The position numbers and the translations under genes were made by a program. The notes beneath the pieces were generated by a model, which was not told the origin of the DNA, made no database searches, and was given only the letters and a program-made list of their open reading frames with translations. Shown in pieces: positions 17,941 through 32,330 of a DNA stretch of 46,425 nt. Source of the DNA: a virus; IMG/VR virus record IMGVR_UViG_3300020020_000061, positions 1 to 46,425 of that record. The stretch is one strand, 5' to 3'. Position 1 is the first letter of the stretch, and the number at the start of each line of letters is the position of its first letter.

Positions 17941-18408
17941 TCACCCAACTCGCTTAAAAATAATAATTACTGATGGACTAAATGTTTGTTGCCAAGTTCC
18001 TTCTTTTGTTTGAAATCTTGGACGACCTCTTAAATATCTTATCTCTCCTTTCATTGCGTAATCGTGCCACCACGCCGTGTCAGTCGCACTTGGAACTAAA
18101 CATACCACAACTGCCCCCTTTAATGAACTTTCATATGCTTTTTTCATCCATTCATTCAGAACTTTCCCATAAGGCGGATTCATCCAACAATTAAAACCTG
18201 ACCAGCTTTGTTTCAATCCATCTATTTCTTCATTGAAATAATTTATGTTTTTAAAATTCCAATCTGAAGCACAAACATCTAAATTGAAATGAAATTCATT
18301 GTCCAATTTATCATATAAATCTTGTGGCGTAGACCAATCCGAACCACGACTATGCCATCTGCCATCATTCCGAACTCTCGCAATCTTTGTTTTTAATTCT
18401 TTTTTCAA
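17941..18408 (-). CDS. dam: Phage DNA N6-adenine methyltransferase (Dam family), 155 aa
   Basis: The sequence matches the phage Dam family: STPQDLYDKLDNEFHFNLDVCAS at the N-terminus, the catalytic NPPYG motif at residues 77-81, then VVVCLVPSATDTAWWHDY and LRGRPRF. It would methylate adenine at N6 using S-adenosylmethionine, probably to evade host restriction. Length is normal. It sits between the tiny-protein cluster and the packaging genes. Confidence 0.9.
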   Translation of the reverse strand: MKKELKTKIARVRNDGRWHSRGSDWSTPQDLYDKLDNEFHFNLDVCASDWNFKNINYFNEEIDGLKQSWSGFNCWMNPPYGKVLNEWMKKAYESSLKGAVVVCLVPSATDTAWWHDYAMKGEIRYLRGRPRFQTKEGTWQQTFSPSVIIIFKRVG

Positions 18409-20751: not shown

Positions 20752-21228
20752 TTAAAGCAAACCTTTAGAACGTTGTTTATGTCTGTGCCTTCCAGGTCGG
20801 CATTCTATCGTACAATCTTTGCCAAATTCATCTTCTTCTGGTTCATCAAATTCTTTTATTTCCGTATTTTCCATATCTTTCTTTAATGCCTCTATGGCGT
20901 TTTCAAATGATATTTCTTTTAAAGCATTAGGCGTTCCCGCCATAATAGCCAAAATGTGTTTAAAATTCTCGTAAACAATTATCATCCATGGTATTTTAAA
21001 TGCCATCATTCTTGCTTCTAATTCTTCTTTGTCCATTTTCTCCAAGATTGTGTAATGCAAAGCTAGAATTCCTGTAAAACCATAGAATAACACCATTCTT
21101 ATATCTGGTGTGTTACTAACATTACCTAAATTCATAGTTGTCGCTGAATAAGGAACCCATAATGGAGTTAAACCTGGAGCATTAAACCACGCACCTTGAC
21201 TATTGGGATTGGAAGTATTGGAAGGCAT
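20752..21228 (-). CDS. Hypothetical protein downstream of MoxR-VWA pair, 158 aa
   Basis: The start overlaps the VWA gene stop by one base. The N-terminus is Asn/Pro/Ser-rich, the centre has two helices with hydrophobic stretches (IRMVLFYGFTGILALHYTIL; MAFKIPWMIIVYENFKHILAIMAG), then an acidic segment (EIKEFDEPEEDEFGKDC) and a basic His/Arg-rich end (CRPGRHRHKQRSKG). It is probably co-translated with the VWA protein and may be part of the same system. No family was recognised. Confidence 0.55.
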   Translation of the reverse strand: MPSNTSNPNSQGAWFNAPGLTPLWVPYSATTMNLGNVSNTPDIRMVLFYGFTGILALHYTILEKMDKEELEARMMAFKIPWMIIVYENFKHILAIMAGTPNALKEISFENAIEALKKDMENTEIKEFDEPEEDEFGKDCTIECRPGRHRHKQRSKGLL

Positions 21229-23240
21229 TATCTTTTAATTAATTCTTTTAATAATTTGGCGAATTCCGCAGGTAATTCACTAGCGGATTTCAATACACGA
21301 CTATTGCCAATACATAAATAAACCATTTCACGTTCACATTCTATTCCGAATCCCACAGATTTGATATTTTTCTTCTTCCATGGCAGAAAATAATCTCTGT
21401 CAAAAATACTAACATTTCCGACTCCTCCGTCAGTCAGAACAATCACGAATCTATTCTTCTCTGTCTGTATTTCTATTTTCAATCTATCCAGACCTACATC
21501 AAGATTAGTTCCTCCACCTCTGTGGTTGACCAGACCGCCAATCTTTTTTTCTATCGTTTTATCCATTTCTTTTTCAAACTCTTTGACAGTCTTAGCCCCG
21601 TTAGAGAAAACAACAATCTCAAACGGTATCTGCATCTGTTTGAACACTTCCGTCAGAATTATCAACGCTCTGGTTGTATGAAGTATCCTTACACCATCCA
21701 TAGACCCTGAAACATCCAAAAGAATAGAGAAAGCGAATGAACGTATAGTATCATTAACTTCTAATTTGGATTTGAACACTCGACTGCTTCCCACTGAACT
21801 CTTATATAATTTCTTGGTATTCAATCTGCCTCGTTTCTGGTCGCCTACATAACGCACAGAAAGCTCCTCCCTACGCATAAAAGTTAATCTACGGACTAAT
21901 TGTCGTATTTCCATTCCCACGCTGTCCTTGAGCGTTTTATACTCTCCTGTTAACCATTCAGGCGGTATTTTGTTGTTACTCGGACCGCTCTGGCGAGATA
22001 GAGAATTTTCATTCTGTGGGTCAATTCCCGCTTTGTGCATAAATTCTTCATTTATTCTATCCATTATCTGTTCCATTACCTCAGCGGGCATCATTGGAAA
22101 AGCATCTTCAATTATTTTGTTTCTTTCTTGAGCGTCTTTTAATAAATCTTCCAATATCGGATAAACGGCAGTTTCTAAATATTGCGACAATTCTCTTGAA
22201 TTCTTTTTTATCTTTGAAGGTTCAATCGTATGATGGAGCAATTTCATCTTCTCTTTAATGTTGGTAAATTCTTTATGCCCTAGCGGGTCAATAGTGTACA
22301 TTTCGCTCAACATCTCTCCGCACCATTCATAGATAGTGCCAACATTCTCGCTTTTGGACTCAATCAAAGCCAAACCTAATTGAACTGCGTCTAAATCGGT
22401 AGTGCCGAATTTATTATGCAAATCCAATTTTAATTTAGGGTCTTTGGGATTAAGAACACCTTTACTGTTTGTATGTCCGTTTAAGATTTCAGCAAAGATT
22501 TGTACAGGTATGAGATAGATTAATTTCCTGAAAGCCTCTCCGACTTTCATGTATTTATTTACTTGTTCTTCAATGGTGGGAATTATGTTTTCATATATTT
22601 CTGACGCGCTCTCGTATGCTTTCAACATCAGAAAATCAACTCTCAAATCTTCATACGCCGCCAAAACTTCTCTGGCAGGCATATCATATTTCTGAATGTA
22701 TGTATTTTTTAATAGAGAATGATGCGTAACGTAACGCAATTTTCCGATAACGTGCATAAGTGTAGCCAATAATTCAGATTTAGTGCCATAAACTAATGAA
22801 GCAGGATTGTAAGTGAGAGTTTTGGATATCAAATCAACTTTCCAATCGCTCCCAATCTCAAGTTTGATGTTATGTTTAGCTGAAAGAGCGTTCGCCATCT
22901 GCTGAATATATTTGTAAGTTAATTGCGGTTGTCTATAATATCCGTTCCAAACGCCAGTCTTCTCGTAATTCGTATAAGCGTTGCTGTATTCTTCTTTGTT
23001 TATCTCATAACGTTTCTTTTTATCACCTGAAGATTCTTTGGAAAGTTTATTATCCAATTCCCAATTACGAGAAGAATAACCATATTCATCCTCAGGCAGA
23101 ATTTCAAAACCGTCATCGTCAATCAATTTTTTCTTTTTCAATTCTTCAGAATGTTTCTTGATAGTGTTGCTGAAAAGGTCTTGATGATATGGACTGTGAA
23201 TATTAGATTTTTCAAACCATCTTTTTCTTTTGTTTTTCAT
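21228..23240 (-). CDS. VWA-domain protein, CobT-like partner of MoxR ATPase, 670 aa
   Basis: The C-terminal ~165 residues are a von Willebrand factor A domain with an intact MIDAS: DVSGSM at residues 509-514, Thr578 in GGGTNLD and Asp604 in VLTDGG. The N-terminal ~330 residues include a metallopeptidase-like look (LIHVIGKLRYVTHH region reads as LLATLMHVIGKLRYVTHHSL, not a clean HExxH). The middle carries the CobT-like RR-rich region. It is coupled by a 4-base overlap to the MoxR ATPase. Such pairs act as chaperone machines that remodel or insert metal into a target protein; the target here is unknown. Confidence 0.85.
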   Translation of the reverse strand: MKNKRKRWFEKSNIHSPYHQDLFSNTIKKHSEELKKKKLIDDDGFEILPEDEYGYSSRNWELDNKLSKESSGDKKKRYEINKEEYSNAYTNYEKTGVWNGYYRQPQLTYKYIQQMANALSAKHNIKLEIGSDWKVDLISKTLTYNPASLVYGTKSELLATLMHVIGKLRYVTHHSLLKNTYIQKYDMPAREVLAAYEDLRVDFLMLKAYESASEIYENIIPTIEEQVNKYMKVGEAFRKLIYLIPVQIFAEILNGHTNSKGVLNPKDPKLKLDLHNKFGTTDLDAVQLGLALIESKSENVGTIYEWCGEMLSEMYTIDPLGHKEFTNIKEKMKLLHHTIEPSKIKKNSRELSQYLETAVYPILEDLLKDAQERNKIIEDAFPMMPAEVMEQIMDRINEEFMHKAGIDPQNENSLSRQSGPSNNKIPPEWLTGEYKTLKDSVGMEIRQLVRRLTFMRREELSVRYVGDQKRGRLNTKKLYKSSVGSSRVFKSKLEVNDTIRSFAFSILLDVSGSMDGVRILHTTRALIILTEVFKQMQIPFEIVVFSNGAKTVKEFEKEMDKTIEKKIGGLVNHRGGGTNLDVGLDRLKIEIQTEKNRFVIVLTDGGVGNVSIFDRDYFLPWKKKNIKSVGFGIECEREMVYLCIGNSRVLKSASELPAEFAKLLKELIKR

Positions 23241-24157
23241 TTGGGTTCTAATTCTTCTTCTTCTTCCTTCTTAATGCCACCAACGCCATCGTCCGCAGTC
23301 TTAAAATGAAGCGCCATCAAGGTTTTAACCGCATCATAATCATCATCCGCTATCTTATTCAGAACAGTCATTTCCGCCGAATTAAGAAATTTGTTATAGA
23401 CTTTGTACATCAAAGCCCACATTAACAAATCTCTAGTTGAAAGTACGAATCGTATTTCTTGTTTAGCGTGCATCATTCGCACTTCTCCTGCCAATTTTAT
23501 CATCTTCTCGGCTGTCGCATCAGTAATTCCTGTGCGAGTAACTAATATATTGCGTTCTATCTTCGGAGGTGAAAAATCAACTTTCACAACCATAAATCTT
23601 GACATTAGAGCTTTGTTAAGTTCTTTCGTACCTGCATATTCTGTTGAGGGATTCATCGCTCCGAAGAAACGAAAATCGGGATGCGGTATTACAACTTCAT
23701 TTCCTTTCTCCGCAAGAATAACTCGTCCGTCATCATCCAATAAAGAATGATAGACGAAATTAATCTCCGCTCCAGCCGCATTTATTTCATCAGCCAAAAA
23801 CCAATATCCTTTCTTCATCGCTTCAATCAGAATTCCATCTTGCCAAACTGTCTCTCCTTTCATAAGCAACCATCTGCCGATAATATCTTCTACTGTCGTT
23901 CCGCCATTATGATTAACTCGCACGAAAGCATTGTTCGTAGATAAAGCAAGATGTCTAACCAAGGCGGTTTTACCGCATCCAGTTTCTCCTATTAAGAGCA
24001 CAGGCATCCGATAACTGACCGCTACGGCAACCTGTTCCATTATCTTTCTATTGTCTTCAAATTTTATCTCTTTAGGCAGGAAATTAGGATTGACTGTTTC
24101 TTTATTCACAGGCAGAGATACTCTGCGTGAAACCTTAAACCATTTAACTGTTTCCAT
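23237..24157 (-). CDS. MoxR/CobS-type AAA+ ATPase, 306 aa
   Basis: The Walker A is GETGCGKT (residues 57-64). The Walker B is WFLADE (119-124), followed by the INAA segment typical of MoxR proteins. Sensor 1 lies in FRFFGAMNPST, and the arginine-finger region in LNKALMSRFMVVKVDF. These are hallmarks of the MoxR/CobS clade, which works with a VWA partner; the next gene is that partner. Some large phages carry CobS/CobT-like pairs of uncertain role. It follows the ParB operon and probably shares promoter P1. Confidence 0.9.
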   Translation of the reverse strand: METVKWFKVSRRVSLPVNKETVNPNFLPKEIKFEDNRKIMEQVAVAVSYRMPVLLIGETGCGKTALVRHLALSTNNAFVRVNHNGGTTVEDIIGRWLLMKGETVWQDGILIEAMKKGYWFLADEINAAGAEINFVYHSLLDDDGRVILAEKGNEVVIPHPDFRFFGAMNPSTEYAGTKELNKALMSRFMVVKVDFSPPKIERNILVTRTGITDATAEKMIKLAGEVRMMHAKQEIRFVLSTRDLLMWALMYKVYNKFLNSAEMTVLNKIADDDYDAVKTLMALHFKTADDGVGGIKKEEEEELEPK

Positions 24158-26329: not shown

Positions 26330-26833
26330 CTAAAGCGATATAATAGTTTCCCAAACCTCTCTAGCAACCACACCAAATTCTCGGTTATTATCAAAACGAA
26401 ACGTCTTATATTTCTTCCTTTGACAGAAAGCTACCAATCTTGAGACGCCTTTTTCAAAAGTTACATATTTTTTCAAGTTAATTTTAGATTTTGCATTTCT
26501 AATGAGAACTCTTTTTTTTAATTCTTCATAGACTGTATCTAAAATCATTACAATGACTTCATGATTGCGAGAATAGTAAAAAAAATCTTTTCGGTTGCTG
26601 AACAAAGCTCCGTGAATCAAATAATCACGGTTAGATAAAAAAAGTTTCTCAAAGAATTCTTTTTTAGTAACTTTATATCGTTTGAAATCATCCGCCCCTC
26701 TTTTACCGCCAATGCTTAAAAAACCTCTGACCTCCGTGGTAATTCCATCAGAACATAATAAATGAGGATAAAAATTAACAATAGAGGTCTTGCCAGAACC
26801 ATAATATCCGACTAAAACTATAACTTTTTTCAT
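26330..26833 (-). CDS. P-loop kinase, candidate 5-hydroxymethyl-pyrimidine DNA kinase, 167 aa
   Basis: The Walker A is GYYGSGKTS (residues 9-17). An Asp in VIVMILDTVYEEL and an Arg-rich LID-like helix (EELKKRVLIRNAKSK) complete a small nucleotide/polynucleotide kinase fold. Isolated small P-loop kinases occur beside amino-acid:DNA transferase genes in hypermodifying phages, where they phosphorylate 5-hydroxymethyl-uracil in DNA. The substrate here is inferred from neighbours; a free nucleotide kinase is the alternative. It overlaps the upstream gene by 4 bases. Confidence 0.75.
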   Translation of the reverse strand: MKKVIVLVGYYGSGKTSIVNFYPHLLCSDGITTEVRGFLSIGGKRGADDFKRYKVTKKEFFEKLFLSNRDYLIHGALFSNRKDFFYYSRNHEVIVMILDTVYEELKKRVLIRNAKSKINLKKYVTFEKGVSRLVAFCQRKKYKTFRFDNNREFGVVAREVWETIISL

Positions 26834-27579
26834 ATTAGAGAAGAAGAAAAATCTATATCCTCCTTTCTATTTACGTTGACTGTCATAATGGCAATTTCCT
26901 TCTTTTCAAATAAAAGAAAAGATGTATCTTTAAATGCTTCAATTTTTATCAACGACCATTCAGGATATTTCTTCTTAAAGAATCTGCCCACTTTCTCGTA
27001 AAAATCATTTAAATTACCCAATAATTCTTCCCCTATAATTTTTTCATAAGTTTTATAAGAAGATAAACCATATTTTAAATAGAAAACAGAACAGTCATTT
27101 ATCAAAACATATTTCTGAGCATTGAAGAAAACCATATCTAAAATAGGTTTATATTCATTCATAAATCTTTTAAGAGTGAAATTATTGAAATCAGCGAATA
27201 TAAAATCAGCTTTCGGCATTATATAACCGAACATATCTTTATTATTTACTTTCTGGTTAGGGAAATTAACTTTCAGAATTTCAAAACAATATGGACAAAA
27301 ATCATTCAATTCGGATTCTCCTTCATGAAATATTCTGCCACTAATACCAATTCCAGCTAATAAATCAAAATATGTTTTATATTTTCCTTTTATCTCCTCT
27401 TTAATGTTTAAAAGACATTTTATTTTAAGTGGCAGAAGAACCTCTCTGTAATTTTTGGACGAAGAATATCTTTTTAAGAATTTCTCCAAATATGAAGTAT
27501 CGTTCTTCATAACGAAACTTCCTTTGAAATTCTTATCACTTCCTAAATAAACAGAATAGTTTTTGAAATTAAAAATCAT
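26830..27579 (-). CDS. Methyltransferase-fold protein of modification cassette, 249 aa
   Basis: Residues about 65-85 (TYFDLLAGIGISGRIF) match motif I of Rossmann methyltransferases, close to the DLFAGIG of cytosine-C5 enzymes. A CPYCFEILKVNFPN segment follows. Where a C5 enzyme would have its catalytic Pro-Cys, or an amino-methylase its (D/N/S)PPY, this protein has FADFNNFTLKRF. It may therefore bind DNA or SAM without standard methylation, or do another SAM-dependent step. It is coupled by overlaps to kinase and transferase genes. The exact activity is not predictable from sequence. Confidence 0.6.
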   Translation of the reverse strand: MIFNFKNYSVYLGSDKNFKGSFVMKNDTSYLEKFLKRYSSSKNYREVLLPLKIKCLLNIKEEIKGKYKTYFDLLAGIGISGRIFHEGESELNDFCPYCFEILKVNFPNQKVNNKDMFGYIMPKADFIFADFNNFTLKRFMNEYKPILDMVFFNAQKYVLINDCSVFYLKYGLSSYKTYEKIIGEELLGNLNDFYEKVGRFFKKKYPEWSLIKIEAFKDTSFLLFEKKEIAIMTVNVNRKEDIDFSSSLI

Positions 27580-28660
27580 TGACGTAGTCGTTAAAATTAT
27601 TCTTAAAACACGACCATTCTTTGTACATCATAATAACTTGTCCAGTTTTCAGATAATGATTTTGTTTCACAGGTTTTAATCCAGGGTCTTTCGGATTGCT
27701 CTCTAAAAGTAAATGACGTGGGAGGCATTCTTGCCGTAACTGCCAAAAAAAATCCATCTTCTTTTTCCAAAGTCGCTCATGTCGTTTTATTCTTTCATAA
27801 AACATATCATTGTAGACATTCGGATATCTGCGATTTAAACGATGCCAACTCTTGTAACAGCACAAAGTGCTCTCCAAGGTAAAATAATTCGTCTCAGGGC
27901 AATTTTGACGCTCTAGAGCCTCTTTAAGGAGCTGTTCTCCCTCTCTAACAAGCCAATTTATGCATTCAAGCGAATAATCACCTTTAAAGTTAGGATTGAG
28001 TTTGTCGTGCCAATCCAAATCATCTCTGCCTAGAACTTTGCATAAACCGTTCCGATGAGATTTTGAACCTTCAATATCCTCCAAAAAAAGAGTTGAACAA
28101 TCAATATTTAAACCAGCTATCTTTAAATACTCCAAATAAGAGAAAGTAGAAAGTCTGCCAAAATAAGCGAATTCATTTATAACATAATCCCAAACTCTAT
28201 TGAAATTCTCTTTGGGAGTGCTGAAACAAAATTTATTAAAAAAATCTTCCTGCGTTTTGCCTCCCAAATGTTTTTTATAATCTTCAATACAACTTTCAAA
28301 TTTATTCTTTACCCATTTTCTATCGCTGTCCCAACCGAATTTTAAATAATTCAACCTAAAATATGAAGATAATTTTTTCAAATCCAGATTTTCCAAAGAA
28401 GGAAAATTCTGGAATATCTCAAAAGTAGTAACTACGTTCTGCGTAACTCCGTTTATGAAACAGAACCAATATTTCTGTTCTTGATTCATTTTTAATTTCT
28501 CAAAAATATAAGGAAAAGCGTAATAAACTCCGCCTGGATGAGATTTATATTTCAAATGAAATTCATAGAATCTCAAAAAAACTTCTCGGCGATATTTAGG
28601 TTCTCTAAAATCCATTCCATATTTAAGTTCTTTAATCTCATTTTCACAAAATCTTTTCAT
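27569..28660 (-). CDS. Amino-acid:DNA transferase-like protein (aGPT-Pplase family), 363 aa
   Basis: The ATG at 28660 overlaps the TGA of the dioxygenase gene and is preferred over one 54 bases upstream. The segment YWFCFINGVTQNVVTTFEIFQNFPSL, then YFRLNYLKFGWDSDRKWVK, matches the style of the alpha-glutamyl/putrescinyl-thymine pyrophosphorylase families, which replace a phosphorylated hydroxymethyl group on thymine with an amine or amino acid. A later GSKSHRNGLCKVLGRDDL is also typical. Position between a TET/JBP oxygenase and a kinase strengthens the call. Recognition is by pattern memory and needs a profile search. Confidence 0.7.
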   Translation of the reverse strand: MKRFCENEIKELKYGMDFREPKYRREVFLRFYEFHLKYKSHPGGVYYAFPYIFEKLKMNQEQKYWFCFINGVTQNVVTTFEIFQNFPSLENLDLKKLSSYFRLNYLKFGWDSDRKWVKNKFESCIEDYKKHLGGKTQEDFFNKFCFSTPKENFNRVWDYVINEFAYFGRLSTFSYLEYLKIAGLNIDCSTLFLEDIEGSKSHRNGLCKVLGRDDLDWHDKLNPNFKGDYSLECINWLVREGEQLLKEALERQNCPETNYFTLESTLCCYKSWHRLNRRYPNVYNDMFYERIKRHERLWKKKMDFFWQLRQECLPRHLLLESNPKDPGLKPVKQNHYLKTGQVIMMYKEWSCFKNNFNDYVNDF

Positions 28661-29526
28661 TGTTTGCCACGACTTCCTACTAATTTGGCACGATGTTCTT
28701 CTGGCATTTTCCAACGTGTTCTCTCACGTTCTGTCTTCCTGTTTCGTATGCGTGCCAATTCTTCCGTCATGTTCAAACATTTCCACATTTGTTTAAGAGA
28801 ATAATAAACTATGGAAAATCTGTGAGAATCTGGTGTAGTGTAAATTATTGGAGTTACACCATGCATAATGCTCTGACCATCAAACATAATTATGGAATTA
28901 TTGCGGAGTTCAAAACCAATTCCATATTCAGGCAATGAAAGATAACCGCCTTGGATGCCTTCTTTGAAAACAATCATTAGAGAATACACATCATTGAAAT
29001 TCCCTGAATCAAAATGATATTTAAGCGGATTATTCTTGTTGATAATCCCACTGGTGAAAATACTTTTCTGATTGAGTTTCCAAATATCTTTTATTTTTTC
29101 ATCAGTTTGAGCTTGATGAGCTTTGTAACCTTCTGGATTATATTTCTCATAATATTTTTCTATCTGCAAAGCCAGATTACAAACTCTGGCGTGAATGTCA
29201 GGCATCTCTTTGGCTAAAGAAGTGCTGGAACAATAATCACCTCGTATGGGTTGCCGTGGACGGAAACCGAAGATGCGAGATTTGGAAGAAAGTCCACGAG
29301 TGCGTTTGCCTTCGTGGTATTGGATTAATTTCAAATCTTTCAGAACTTGCGAAGTATCAATATCAACAATGTCGTAAATTATTTTTATCTTACTGTCTCC
29401 ATCGACGTCAGCCTCAGTGAAAATACTGGGTTCTTTAATTAAAGTTTCAAAATCTTTTTCTAAAGCCGTTCTGCGAACCCAATCTTTGTAATCAACATCT
29501 TTCTTTTTAAGGATGATTTCTCTCAT
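28657..29526 (-). CDS. TET/JBP-family 2-oxoglutarate/Fe(II) dioxygenase, 289 aa
   Basis: The catalytic set is complete: His171 and Asp173 (KYHFDSGNF), His222 (IMHGV) and the 2-oxoglutarate-binding Arg236 (DSHRFSIVYY). The upstream FGFRPRQPIRGDYCSSTSLA and the LPEYGIGFELRNNSIIMFDG loop are characteristic of the TET/JBP clade. These enzymes oxidise the methyl group of 5-methylcytosine or thymine in DNA. The C-terminal tail is basic (IRNRKTERERTRWKM), fit for DNA contact. It shares overlaps with the ParB-like gene before it and the transferase after it. Confidence 0.85.
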   Translation of the reverse strand: MREIILKKKDVDYKDWVRRTALEKDFETLIKEPSIFTEADVDGDSKIKIIYDIVDIDTSQVLKDLKLIQYHEGKRTRGLSSKSRIFGFRPRQPIRGDYCSSTSLAKEMPDIHARVCNLALQIEKYYEKYNPEGYKAHQAQTDEKIKDIWKLNQKSIFTSGIINKNNPLKYHFDSGNFNDVYSLMIVFKEGIQGGYLSLPEYGIGFELRNNSIIMFDGQSIMHGVTPIIYTTPDSHRFSIVYYSLKQMWKCLNMTEELARIRNRKTERERTRWKMPEEHRAKLVGSRGKQ

Positions 29527-30148
29527 ATTCTTCCAAAATCTTCATAAACGCTTCGGTATGATTCTGAACTCCCAACTGCGTCATAAGTTTTTCCATCCTT
29601 GGCATTACATTCTCAAATTCTTCTGCGGTGAAGAATAAAACTATCTGTTTAATGTTTCCTTCAAGATAACTGTCCATCGTTTGCGTCAAATCCGATTTAT
29701 CAATTTGAATCTCCTCATTGAACATTCCTAATTCAAAATCTTCAAAGCCTGCCAATTTTAATTCTTCCATTTCAAATGCTCCCGCCAGAAGTTCGTTGTC
29801 CCAGAATCCACCCATTTTATTCGCATTTAGATTTGCCTGTCCCGCCTTCTTTTCATCCCAATCAACTTCTCGATAATTATATTTCTCTCCATTGTAAACG
29901 ACATATCCGACTGCCACAGTGCCGACTTTAGAATTCTCCACAGGAATAGTAGTAATCTGCACATCTTTGTCATTACGTTTAAAGAATTGAGTGCGTTGAT
30001 TGCCTCCGATTAATTCTTGAGTACGAACGTTATAAACAATTCCTGAAAGGTCGCCAAATTCTTTTATGGAATCTCCCAAAAGATTAAACATCTTCTCAGT
30101 TATTTTTCTGGGATTGCGATGATACTGTTTTAATTGGTTTATCTCCAT
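29507..30148 (-). CDS. ParB-like nuclease-domain protein, 213 aa
   Basis: The N-terminus matches the ParB/IbrB-type domain that often precedes phage DNA methylases: NPRKITEKMFNLLGDSIKEFGDLSGIVYN, then IGGNQRTQFFKR. A central ANLNANKMGGFWDNE is typical of the same family. No helix-turn-helix is present, unlike the ParB at 24811. It may recognise DNA for modification enzymes or have nuclease activity. Overlap with the dioxygenase gene places it in the same operon. Confidence 0.8.
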   Translation of the reverse strand: MEINQLKQYHRNPRKITEKMFNLLGDSIKEFGDLSGIVYNVRTQELIGGNQRTQFFKRNDKDVQITTIPVENSKVGTVAVGYVVYNGEKYNYREVDWDEKKAGQANLNANKMGGFWDNELLAGAFEMEELKLAGFEDFELGMFNEEIQIDKSDLTQTMDSYLEGNIKQIVLFFTAEEFENVMPRMEKLMTQLGVQNHTEAFMKILEEYERNHP

Positions 30149-30387
30149 TGTTGTATTCTTTCTTTTAATTGAAATGTCGGCGTGAATGTCATCTTCGTGT
30201 AAGCTGGGAAACTATCATGCTGCCCCGTGAAAGGATTAAATGCTTTCTTTATTGCTTTCATTCTCTTTAATTTGAAAATGCCTAATCCGATAATCTTAAC
30301 AGACCCATTCTTTAAAAGATAGGCAGAAAGTGTTGTAATAAATTTCGGGTCAACCTTAATAGTTGCCTTCTGGGGTTTATTAGCCAT
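30139..30387 (-). CDS. HU/IHF-type DNA-binding protein, 82 aa
   Basis: Residues 30-60 (VKIIGLGIFKLKRMKAIKKAFNPFTGQ) match the HU/IHF beta-arm region, including the G-x-G-x-F turn and the NPxTG element that inserts into the minor groove. The usual N-terminal helices are shorter than in standard 90-residue HU. It could compact or bend phage DNA during replication, recombination or modification. Confidence 0.85.
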   Translation of the reverse strand: MANKPQKATIKVDPKFITTLSAYLLKNGSVKIIGLGIFKLKRMKAIKKAFNPFTGQHDSFPAYTKMTFTPTFQLKERIQQWR

Positions 30388-31364: not shown

Positions 31365-32330
31365 TTAAGAAAAGAGGTTATTACCTTGTGCTTTTAATCT
31401 ATCTTCAGCTATTTTGCAGTAATCCTTTGATAAGTCTATTCCAATATATTTTCTGCCGAGCTTATTGGCGACTATTCCAGTTGTGCCGCTACCAAAGAAC
31501 GGGTCAAGCACAATATCCCCCTCTTTGCTTCCAGCTCTGATAAGCGGAGCGATTAAAGTCTGCGGATAGGTGGCGTAATGTTCTATCGCTCCGTCCTCCC
31601 CGCTATTGGTGAAAATATCTAGGAAGTCAGGCGGCACTGCGCCTTTCTCGTTTAGCTTTACTATTCTGGCGGGCATACCATATTCTTTTGACTTGTCGCC
31701 CAAACTGCTGGGATTTTGTCCTAAAGCATTTCTGCCCTGTTCGTATTCGGCTCTTTGGAGTGAAACTAATTGATGTGGAGTGCGGATGCTATCAAGGTCA
31801 AAATAATATCTTTGACTTTTTACAAAGAAGAAAAAATACTCGTGGGCTTTCTTCCACCTGTCTTGCACACTTTCAGGCATAGCGTTTCTTTTTATCCAAA
31901 CTAATTTATTTCTTAAAATCCAGCCACGCTCAATCATTTCCAAGGCAAAGCGTTCGGGTATCATAATTAAAGATTTTGGTTGTATATTTCCTTGTTTCAT
32001 TCCTGTTGGTTCTGGCACATCTAATCCTCTAGCACTTGATTTAGGGTCTTTCCAACCAAGATGTCTAGTCGCTCCTAATGATTTATAACTATCTCCTAAA
32101 TTAACGAAACAAGTGCCGTCTTTTTTCAAGACTCGTTTCACTTCGTCAAAAATATCACAGAGGTTTTTAATAAATTTTTGATAAGTGGGTTCTAGTCCTA
32201 TTTGTCCATCTACTCCGTAATCACGAAGCCCATAGTAAGGCGGCGAAGTAACTATGCAACTTACACTCTCATCAGGAAATTTCCGCAGTTCTTCTAAAGC
32301 GTCTCCACAGATTATAGAATTAGGTTTCAT
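31365..32330 (-). CDS. Site-specific DNA methyltransferase (SPPY, beta class), 321 aa
   Basis: Motif IV TSPPYYGLRDYG is near residue 30 and motif I DPFFGSGTTG near the C-terminus, the beta-class order. SPPY favours cytosine-N4 methylation, though some such enzymes act on adenine N6. The protein includes MKQGNIQPKSLIMIPERFALEMI and WIKRNAMPE, standard in phage methylases. No partner restriction enzyme is seen, so it is probably protective. It begins the cluster of modification genes. Confidence 0.92.
   Translation of the reverse strand: MKPNSIICGDALEELRKFPDESVSCIVTSPPYYGLRDYGVDGQIGLEPTYQKFIKNLCDIFDEVKRVLKKDGTCFVNLGDSYKSLGATRHLGWKDPKSSARGLDVPEPTGMKQGNIQPKSLIMIPERFALEMIERGWILRNKLVWIKRNAMPESVQDRWKKAHEYFFFFVKSQRYYFDLDSIRTPHQLVSLQRAEYEQGRNALGQNPSSLGDKSKEYGMPARIVKLNEKGAVPPDFLDIFTNSGEDGAIEHYATYPQTLIAPLIRAGSKEGDIVLDPFFGSGTTGIVANKLGRKYIGIDLSKDYCKIAEDRLKAQGNNLFS

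Follow-up and report, generated by a model that had tools for sequence, protein, structure and literature searches.

Among the closest described systems are those of the phages M6 and ViI (Lee et al. 2018, as cited in PMC9599517 and PMC11946847; PMC6449724). The pathway proposed for them consists of formation of a hydroxymethyl group, phosphorylation on DNA, and transfer of an amine or amino acid; 5-hydroxymethyluracil (5hmU) is synthesized there by a thymidylate-synthase-like hydroxymethylase that uses the free nucleotide (PMC6449724). Kinetoplastid base J begins with hydroxylation of thymine in DNA by TET/JBP enzymes (JBP1/2), and a second enzyme, a glucosyltransferase, acts next (PMC10276184). 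In the Rhodococcus phage Tonitrus (PMC11955845, 2025), genes for ParB, a tet-like protein, aGPT-Pplase2 and a 5hmU kinase were predicted to form a likely thymidine hypermodification system. Cassettes of this kind also occur in mycobacteriophage Prince, whose record annotates TET as a thymidine hydroxylase, and in the Gordonia phage LittleMunchkin. TET/transferase/kinase combinations of this type are said to have been predicted by Iyer et al. in 2013. The initial annotation of the locus described here had called the combination predicted but little tested; as an idea it is not new, being annotated in Tonitrus (PMC11955845) and in mycobacteriophage records.

In this study, we analyzed a 46,425-base IMG/VR virus record (hereafter, the window), in which nearly all genes are on the minus strand. 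Five of them overlap end to end (26330-30148, minus strand) and code for a ParB-like protein, a TET/JBP dioxygenase, an amino acid:DNA transferase (ADDT), a protein designated MTL, and a P-loop kinase (Table 1). Adjacent genes in this order overlap by 20, 4, 11 and 4 bp. The four overlapping minus-strand frames of the initial annotation, from TET to kinase, were confirmed, and its unit is extended here by the ParB-like gene upstream, which belongs to the unit as a fifth member. An alternative start of ADDT, TTG at 28714, would give a protein of 381 aa.

Table 1. Genes of the five-gene unit and the HU/IHF-like gene upstream of it
Feature	Coordinates	Strand	Basis or remark
HU/IHF-like DNA-binding protein	30139..30387	-	Pfam Bac_DNA_binding, 39 bits; upstream of ParB
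ParB-like protein	29507..30148	-	PHROG ParB-like families, to 2e-18; first gene of the unit
TET/JBP Fe(II)/2-oxoglutarate dioxygenase	28657..29526	-	Pfam Tet_JBP
ADDT (amino acid:DNA transferase), 363 aa	27569..28660	-	Pfam PF18724; ATG start at 28660
MTL, 249 aa, predicted class I SAM-methyltransferase fold	26830..27579	-	AlphaFold2 and Foldseek; conserved order
P-loop kinase, predicted NMP-kinase-like fold	26330..26833	-	AlphaFold2 and Foldseek; position

The cassettes of Tonitrus, Prince and LittleMunchkin resemble the window in having ParB, TET/JBP, aGPT-PPlase2/ADDT and P-loop kinase genes in the same order and on the same strand. In contrast to the window, no MTL gene was recognized in them, and the kinase of Prince is of the Ploopntkinase3 family, to which the kinase of the window has no match. 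The ADDT family is common to M6, ViI and the window, as PHROG and Pfam matches indicate; unlike M6 and ViI, the window has no PF00303 hydroxymethylase and carries TET instead. Where base J formation continues with glucosylation (PMC10276184), the window cassette has a kinase plus ADDT.

The TET/JBP protein exceeds the curated Pfam cut-off for Tet_JBP (49.1 bits versus 34.9; 4.9e-13), which bears out its initial assignment. Its HxD...H iron triad (H171, D173 and H222) and the 2-oxoglutarate residue R236 are invariant across 22 phage TETs, and a profile built from the TET alignment also picks up CMD1 and human TET2. We propose this protein as the enzyme that hydroxylates the 5-methyl group of thymine on DNA. 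In a tree of TETs, those linked to ADDT were not separated from the others and were spread over several distant clades. The best PHROG for the protein, phrog_6059, is labelled 'queuine tRNA-ribosyltransferase', and the same label is found on TET genes of RefSeq phage records (e.g., NC_022061 gene 2); on phage TETs it looks like a propagated mis-annotation. ParB adjoins TET in 75 of the 82 analyzed loci of the window's TET clade and also lies beside TET in Prince, Matzah and Tonitrus, and an HU-ParB-TET block is common to the window and otherwise unrelated phages. ParB may guide the modification enzymes to DNA.

The 363-aa product falls within the ADDT family by the curated Pfam cut-off (PF18724, 58.5 bits versus 26.2; 1.1e-15), in agreement with its earlier designation as an amino-acid:DNA transferase. 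It is the proposed transferase that would exchange the phosphate on 5-phosphomethyl-dU for an amino acid or amine. A PDB sequence search returned no solved-structure relative of either ADDT or MTL. We examined 65 ADDT loci (62 IMG/VR loci from an ADDT scan, together with the window's own and those of two phage records). A same-strand TET was present in 44 of these, with a median gap of 585 bp and in every case within 1.2 kb, which far exceeds chance; in 16 of the 21 TET-less loci, the sequence upstream of ADDT breaks off before 1 kb. Most ADDT loci with enough flank have a P-loop kinase with the motif GxDxLSM...EGDR directly after ADDT, and the kinases of Prince (Pfam Ploopntkinase3) and Matzah belong to the same family. 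In three cases (L033:4887-6419, L036:9021-10550 and L049:6413-7921), a single reading frame encodes a fusion of ADDT with the cassette kinase, which ties the two steps directly to each other. Of the several accessory genes found between or beside ADDT and kinase, the most frequent codes for a PLP-type enzyme (c3, with a weak PALP match); another codes for an MTL homologue (c9), and no locus in the ADDT table has both. Cassettes that combine TET with ADDT and kinase are widespread.

In ADDT loci without TET, where the flank is long enough, a gene of the thymidylate-synthase fold (PF00303) is found instead. In L004, L050, L051, L054 and L091-L093, TET is absent from the whole record and the thymidylate-synthase-fold protein is present, and the homologue in TET-less L057, which lies at the contig end, is truncated. 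The PF00303 gene usually lies beside Pfam HMUDK_hel (Montesquieu, L050, L051, L054 and L091-L093), and we read its product in TET-less loci as a dUMP hydroxymethylase. Among the TET+ADDT virus records searched, the window included, none had PF00303 with the exception of Caulobacter phage Cr30 (KF301602), which has TET, ADDT and a thymidylate synthase and thus departs from the exclusion pattern. This protein scores 373 bits versus 60-86 bits for the cassette proteins, and is probably an ordinary, canonical-looking thymidylate synthase, not a hydroxymethylase. Identity of the window ADDT is 49-54% to its counterparts in hydroxymethylase-type phages (L050, L054 and L057) and 39% to that of Prince. 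These data suggest two exchangeable routes to 5hmU, one using dUMP ahead of replication and the other using TET on thymine already in DNA. Since many of the records are fragmentary and those related to each other do not count as independent, no probability is put on this exchange.

MTL had no family match in a Pfam search, and a single-sequence scan gave no relatives; these were recovered by an alignment scan. Its AlphaFold2 model has a pTM of 0.80 and a pLDDT of 75, and the best 11 Foldseek matches were SAM methyltransferases with probabilities of 0.97-1.00, at TM-scores of only about 0.4. The methyltransferase-fold call made from the sequence therefore holds at the level of predicted fold. 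Motif IV, DFN[ND]xT, is unusual. The order ADDT-MTL-kinase is conserved in the window, L054 and L091-L093, accompanied by TET in the window and by HMUDK_hel and the thymidylate-synthase-fold gene in the other loci. The possibility that MTL is a C5-cytosine methyltransferase feeding TET was considered and rejected: it has neither PF00145 nor a PCQ motif, and it occurs in hydroxymethylase-type phages. Since MTL is common to both settings, it is not needed to supply the methyl group for TET, and its most plausible role is that of a tailoring enzyme that would act on the added group. The window also codes for two amino-methyltransferases (N6_N4_Mtase, Dam family) at 31365-32330 and 17941-18408, apart from the cassette.

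That the cassette genes are a decaying or moonlighting remnant in a phage with unmodified virion DNA is very improbable: all five are open and overlapping, the catalytic residues of TET are intact and invariant, and distant phages keep the gene order.

The 167-aa P-loop protein gave an AlphaFold2 model of moderate quality (pTM 0.71; pLDDT 74), which matched UMP/CMP and adenylate kinases in Foldseek (E ~1e-6) and also shikimate kinases. The initial kinase call is thus upheld as to an NMP-kinase-like fold, and the protein did not fall clearly into an unrelated family; its sequence does not place it in a 5hmU DNA kinase family. Pfam searches gave only sub-threshold AAA/kinase matches, and none to HMUD1, HMUD2 or Ploopntkinase3 at E <= 1, and a single-sequence scan for relatives found nothing. 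Placement in the cassette-kinase family by sequence was rejected, as two cassette-kinase profiles (E 0.13 and 5) and hhalign aligned the P-loop only, and scores as good or better were obtained on these profiles with another window protein, an AAA ATPase that served as control. In addition, the window protein has H at the conserved E of the 'EG' motif of the relatives. Such observations would suit a degenerate or unrelated NTPase, in which case the phosphate step would be absent or belong to another protein. We regard this as rather unlikely in view of the predicted NMP-kinase-like fold, the intact P-loop, a lid-like motif (LDT..EELKKR) and the ADDT-MTL-kinase slot, which is the same as in L054 and L091-L093. 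The kinases in this slot in L091 and L093 weakly match the Pfam 5-hmdU DNA kinase family, at 1.6e-5 (just short of the cut-off) and 0.001 (likewise below it), and HMUD2 is matched by the kinase of L057 (8.8e-10). Because the control AAA protein does at least as well on the profiles, the role of the window protein as a putative 5hmU DNA kinase is assigned from its predicted fold, its position and the intact P-loop.

An alignment scan for the window's TET clade recovered at least 577 relatives, of which 80 (42-57% identity) were kept, and 82 loci were analyzed. A glycosyltransferase, the usual partner, was present in 64 loci and ADDT with kinase in four; none had both glycosyltransferase and ADDT. 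Tested examples of the d3 and d14 glycosyltransferases matched the Pfam TET-associated glycosyltransferase family, and the d10 family has a GT-B-like look and no Pfam match. The window's kinase-ADDT-MTL genes therefore occupy the place usually taken by a glycosyltransferase, and, since ADDT replaces that gene and never accompanies it, the cassette is modular. Phages with TET and a TET-associated glycosyltransferase share the ParB-TET block with the window, whereas they have the glycosyltransferase where the window has ADDT-MTL-kinase. The closest relatives of the window TET (L097-L101, 54-57% identical) also have a glycosyltransferase downstream. These are not close relatives of the window phage: the two share HU-ParB-TET and a MoxR-type ATPase, and all other matches are short or weak. 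In the window, a MoxR/CbbQ-type AAA ATPase gene adjoins that of a VWA-domain protein (21228-24157); homologues of the ATPase (43-46% identity) were found in three of four TET-glycosyltransferase phage contigs examined.

Contigs with TET and a TET-associated glycosyltransferase (L097-L176, records G060-G099) mostly lack a C5-cytosine methyltransferase: it was absent, at the cut-off used, from 38 of the 40 large TET-clade records, and PF00303 was absent from all 40. Judged by their gene content, these phages may produce a modification resembling base J, namely glycosylated hydroxymethyluracil.

The initial annotation had left the modified base open, and gene content points to thymine over 5-methylcytosine (5mC). 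A C5-cytosine methyltransferase (PF00145) was absent from the window and from 51 of 53 ADDT/TET records, although such absences are only suggestive because most relatives are contig fragments. It was also absent from the complete TET+ADDT genomes of Prince, Tonitrus, LittleMunchkin and Kozie, and from 13 of 14 further TET-bearing phage genomes, the exception being Melnitz-3, in which TET adjoins an HhaI-type enzyme. Since the ADDT-MTL-kinase trio is found with either hydroxyl source and C5-methyltransferases are missing from the window and almost all relatives, the most likely substrate is thymine, which would be hydroxylated in DNA as by JBP. If the base were instead cytosine, a host or divergent methyltransferase would make 5mC, TET would convert it to 5-hydroxymethylcytosine (5hmC), and phosphate and amino acid would follow. 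The Melnitz-3 arrangement is in line with this route, as are the C5-methyltransferases of two TET+ADDT records (L027 and L029) and the frequent pairing of the window's TET clade with TET-associated glycosyltransferases. The latter enzymes are known from work on 5hmC, a link that would favor a 5mC-acting ancestor and counts against thymine. We nevertheless find the cytosine route distinctly unlikely, given the lack of a C5-methyltransferase in the window and in nearly all of the large TET-clade records, the approximately 50% identity of the window ADDT to ADDTs of TET-less phages with the thymidylate-synthase-fold hydroxymethylase, and the occurrence of MTL in hydroxymethylase phages, which makes MTL an unlikely candidate for a hidden 5mC maker.

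With thymine as the substrate, the five-gene unit is probably a cassette for post-replicative hypermodification. TET/JBP would hydroxylate the 5-methyl group of thymine in phage DNA to 5hmU, like trypanosome JBP; the kinase would phosphorylate the hydroxymethyl group; ADDT would put an amino acid or amine in place of the phosphate; and MTL would tailor the product, perhaps by methylating it, with ParB perhaps directing the enzymes to DNA. The overall interpretation offered at the outset, a hypermodification pathway of oxygenase, transferase, kinase and methyltransferase-fold protein, is supported at the family and fold level. More tentatively, the entire route could take place on finished DNA, starting from thymine and ending in SAM-dependent methylation by a new enzyme to give a methylated aminoacyl-thymine, with modules (TET or hydroxymethylase; glycosyltransferase or kinase-ADDT, plus MTL or PLP enzyme) that are freely exchangeable.

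The cassette probably represents an idea predicted earlier and hardly tested, the disguise of DNA by thymine hypermodification. New relative to the predicted cassette are MTL and the two-way module swap; the papers searched describe neither MTL as a component, nor an ADDT-MTL-kinase set common to both hydroxyl routes, nor the mutual exclusion of glycosyltransferase and ADDT modules. If the proposed pathway is correct, phages can hypermodify thymine without changing the nucleotide pool, and JBP-type thymine hydroxylation, established in kinetoplastids, occurs in phages as well. Owing to the gene swaps, the base is directly testable in cultured collection phages (Prince, Tonitrus and LittleMunchkin), and MTL, as a new tailoring enzyme, together with hundreds of relatives would be a source of DNA-modifying enzymes and new anti-restriction chemistry.

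The two ends of the contig (window 1-788 and 45635-46422) match at 82.7% over 791 bases; the genome is either circular, with the copy of a divergent strain at the closure, or has paralogous genes in tandem.
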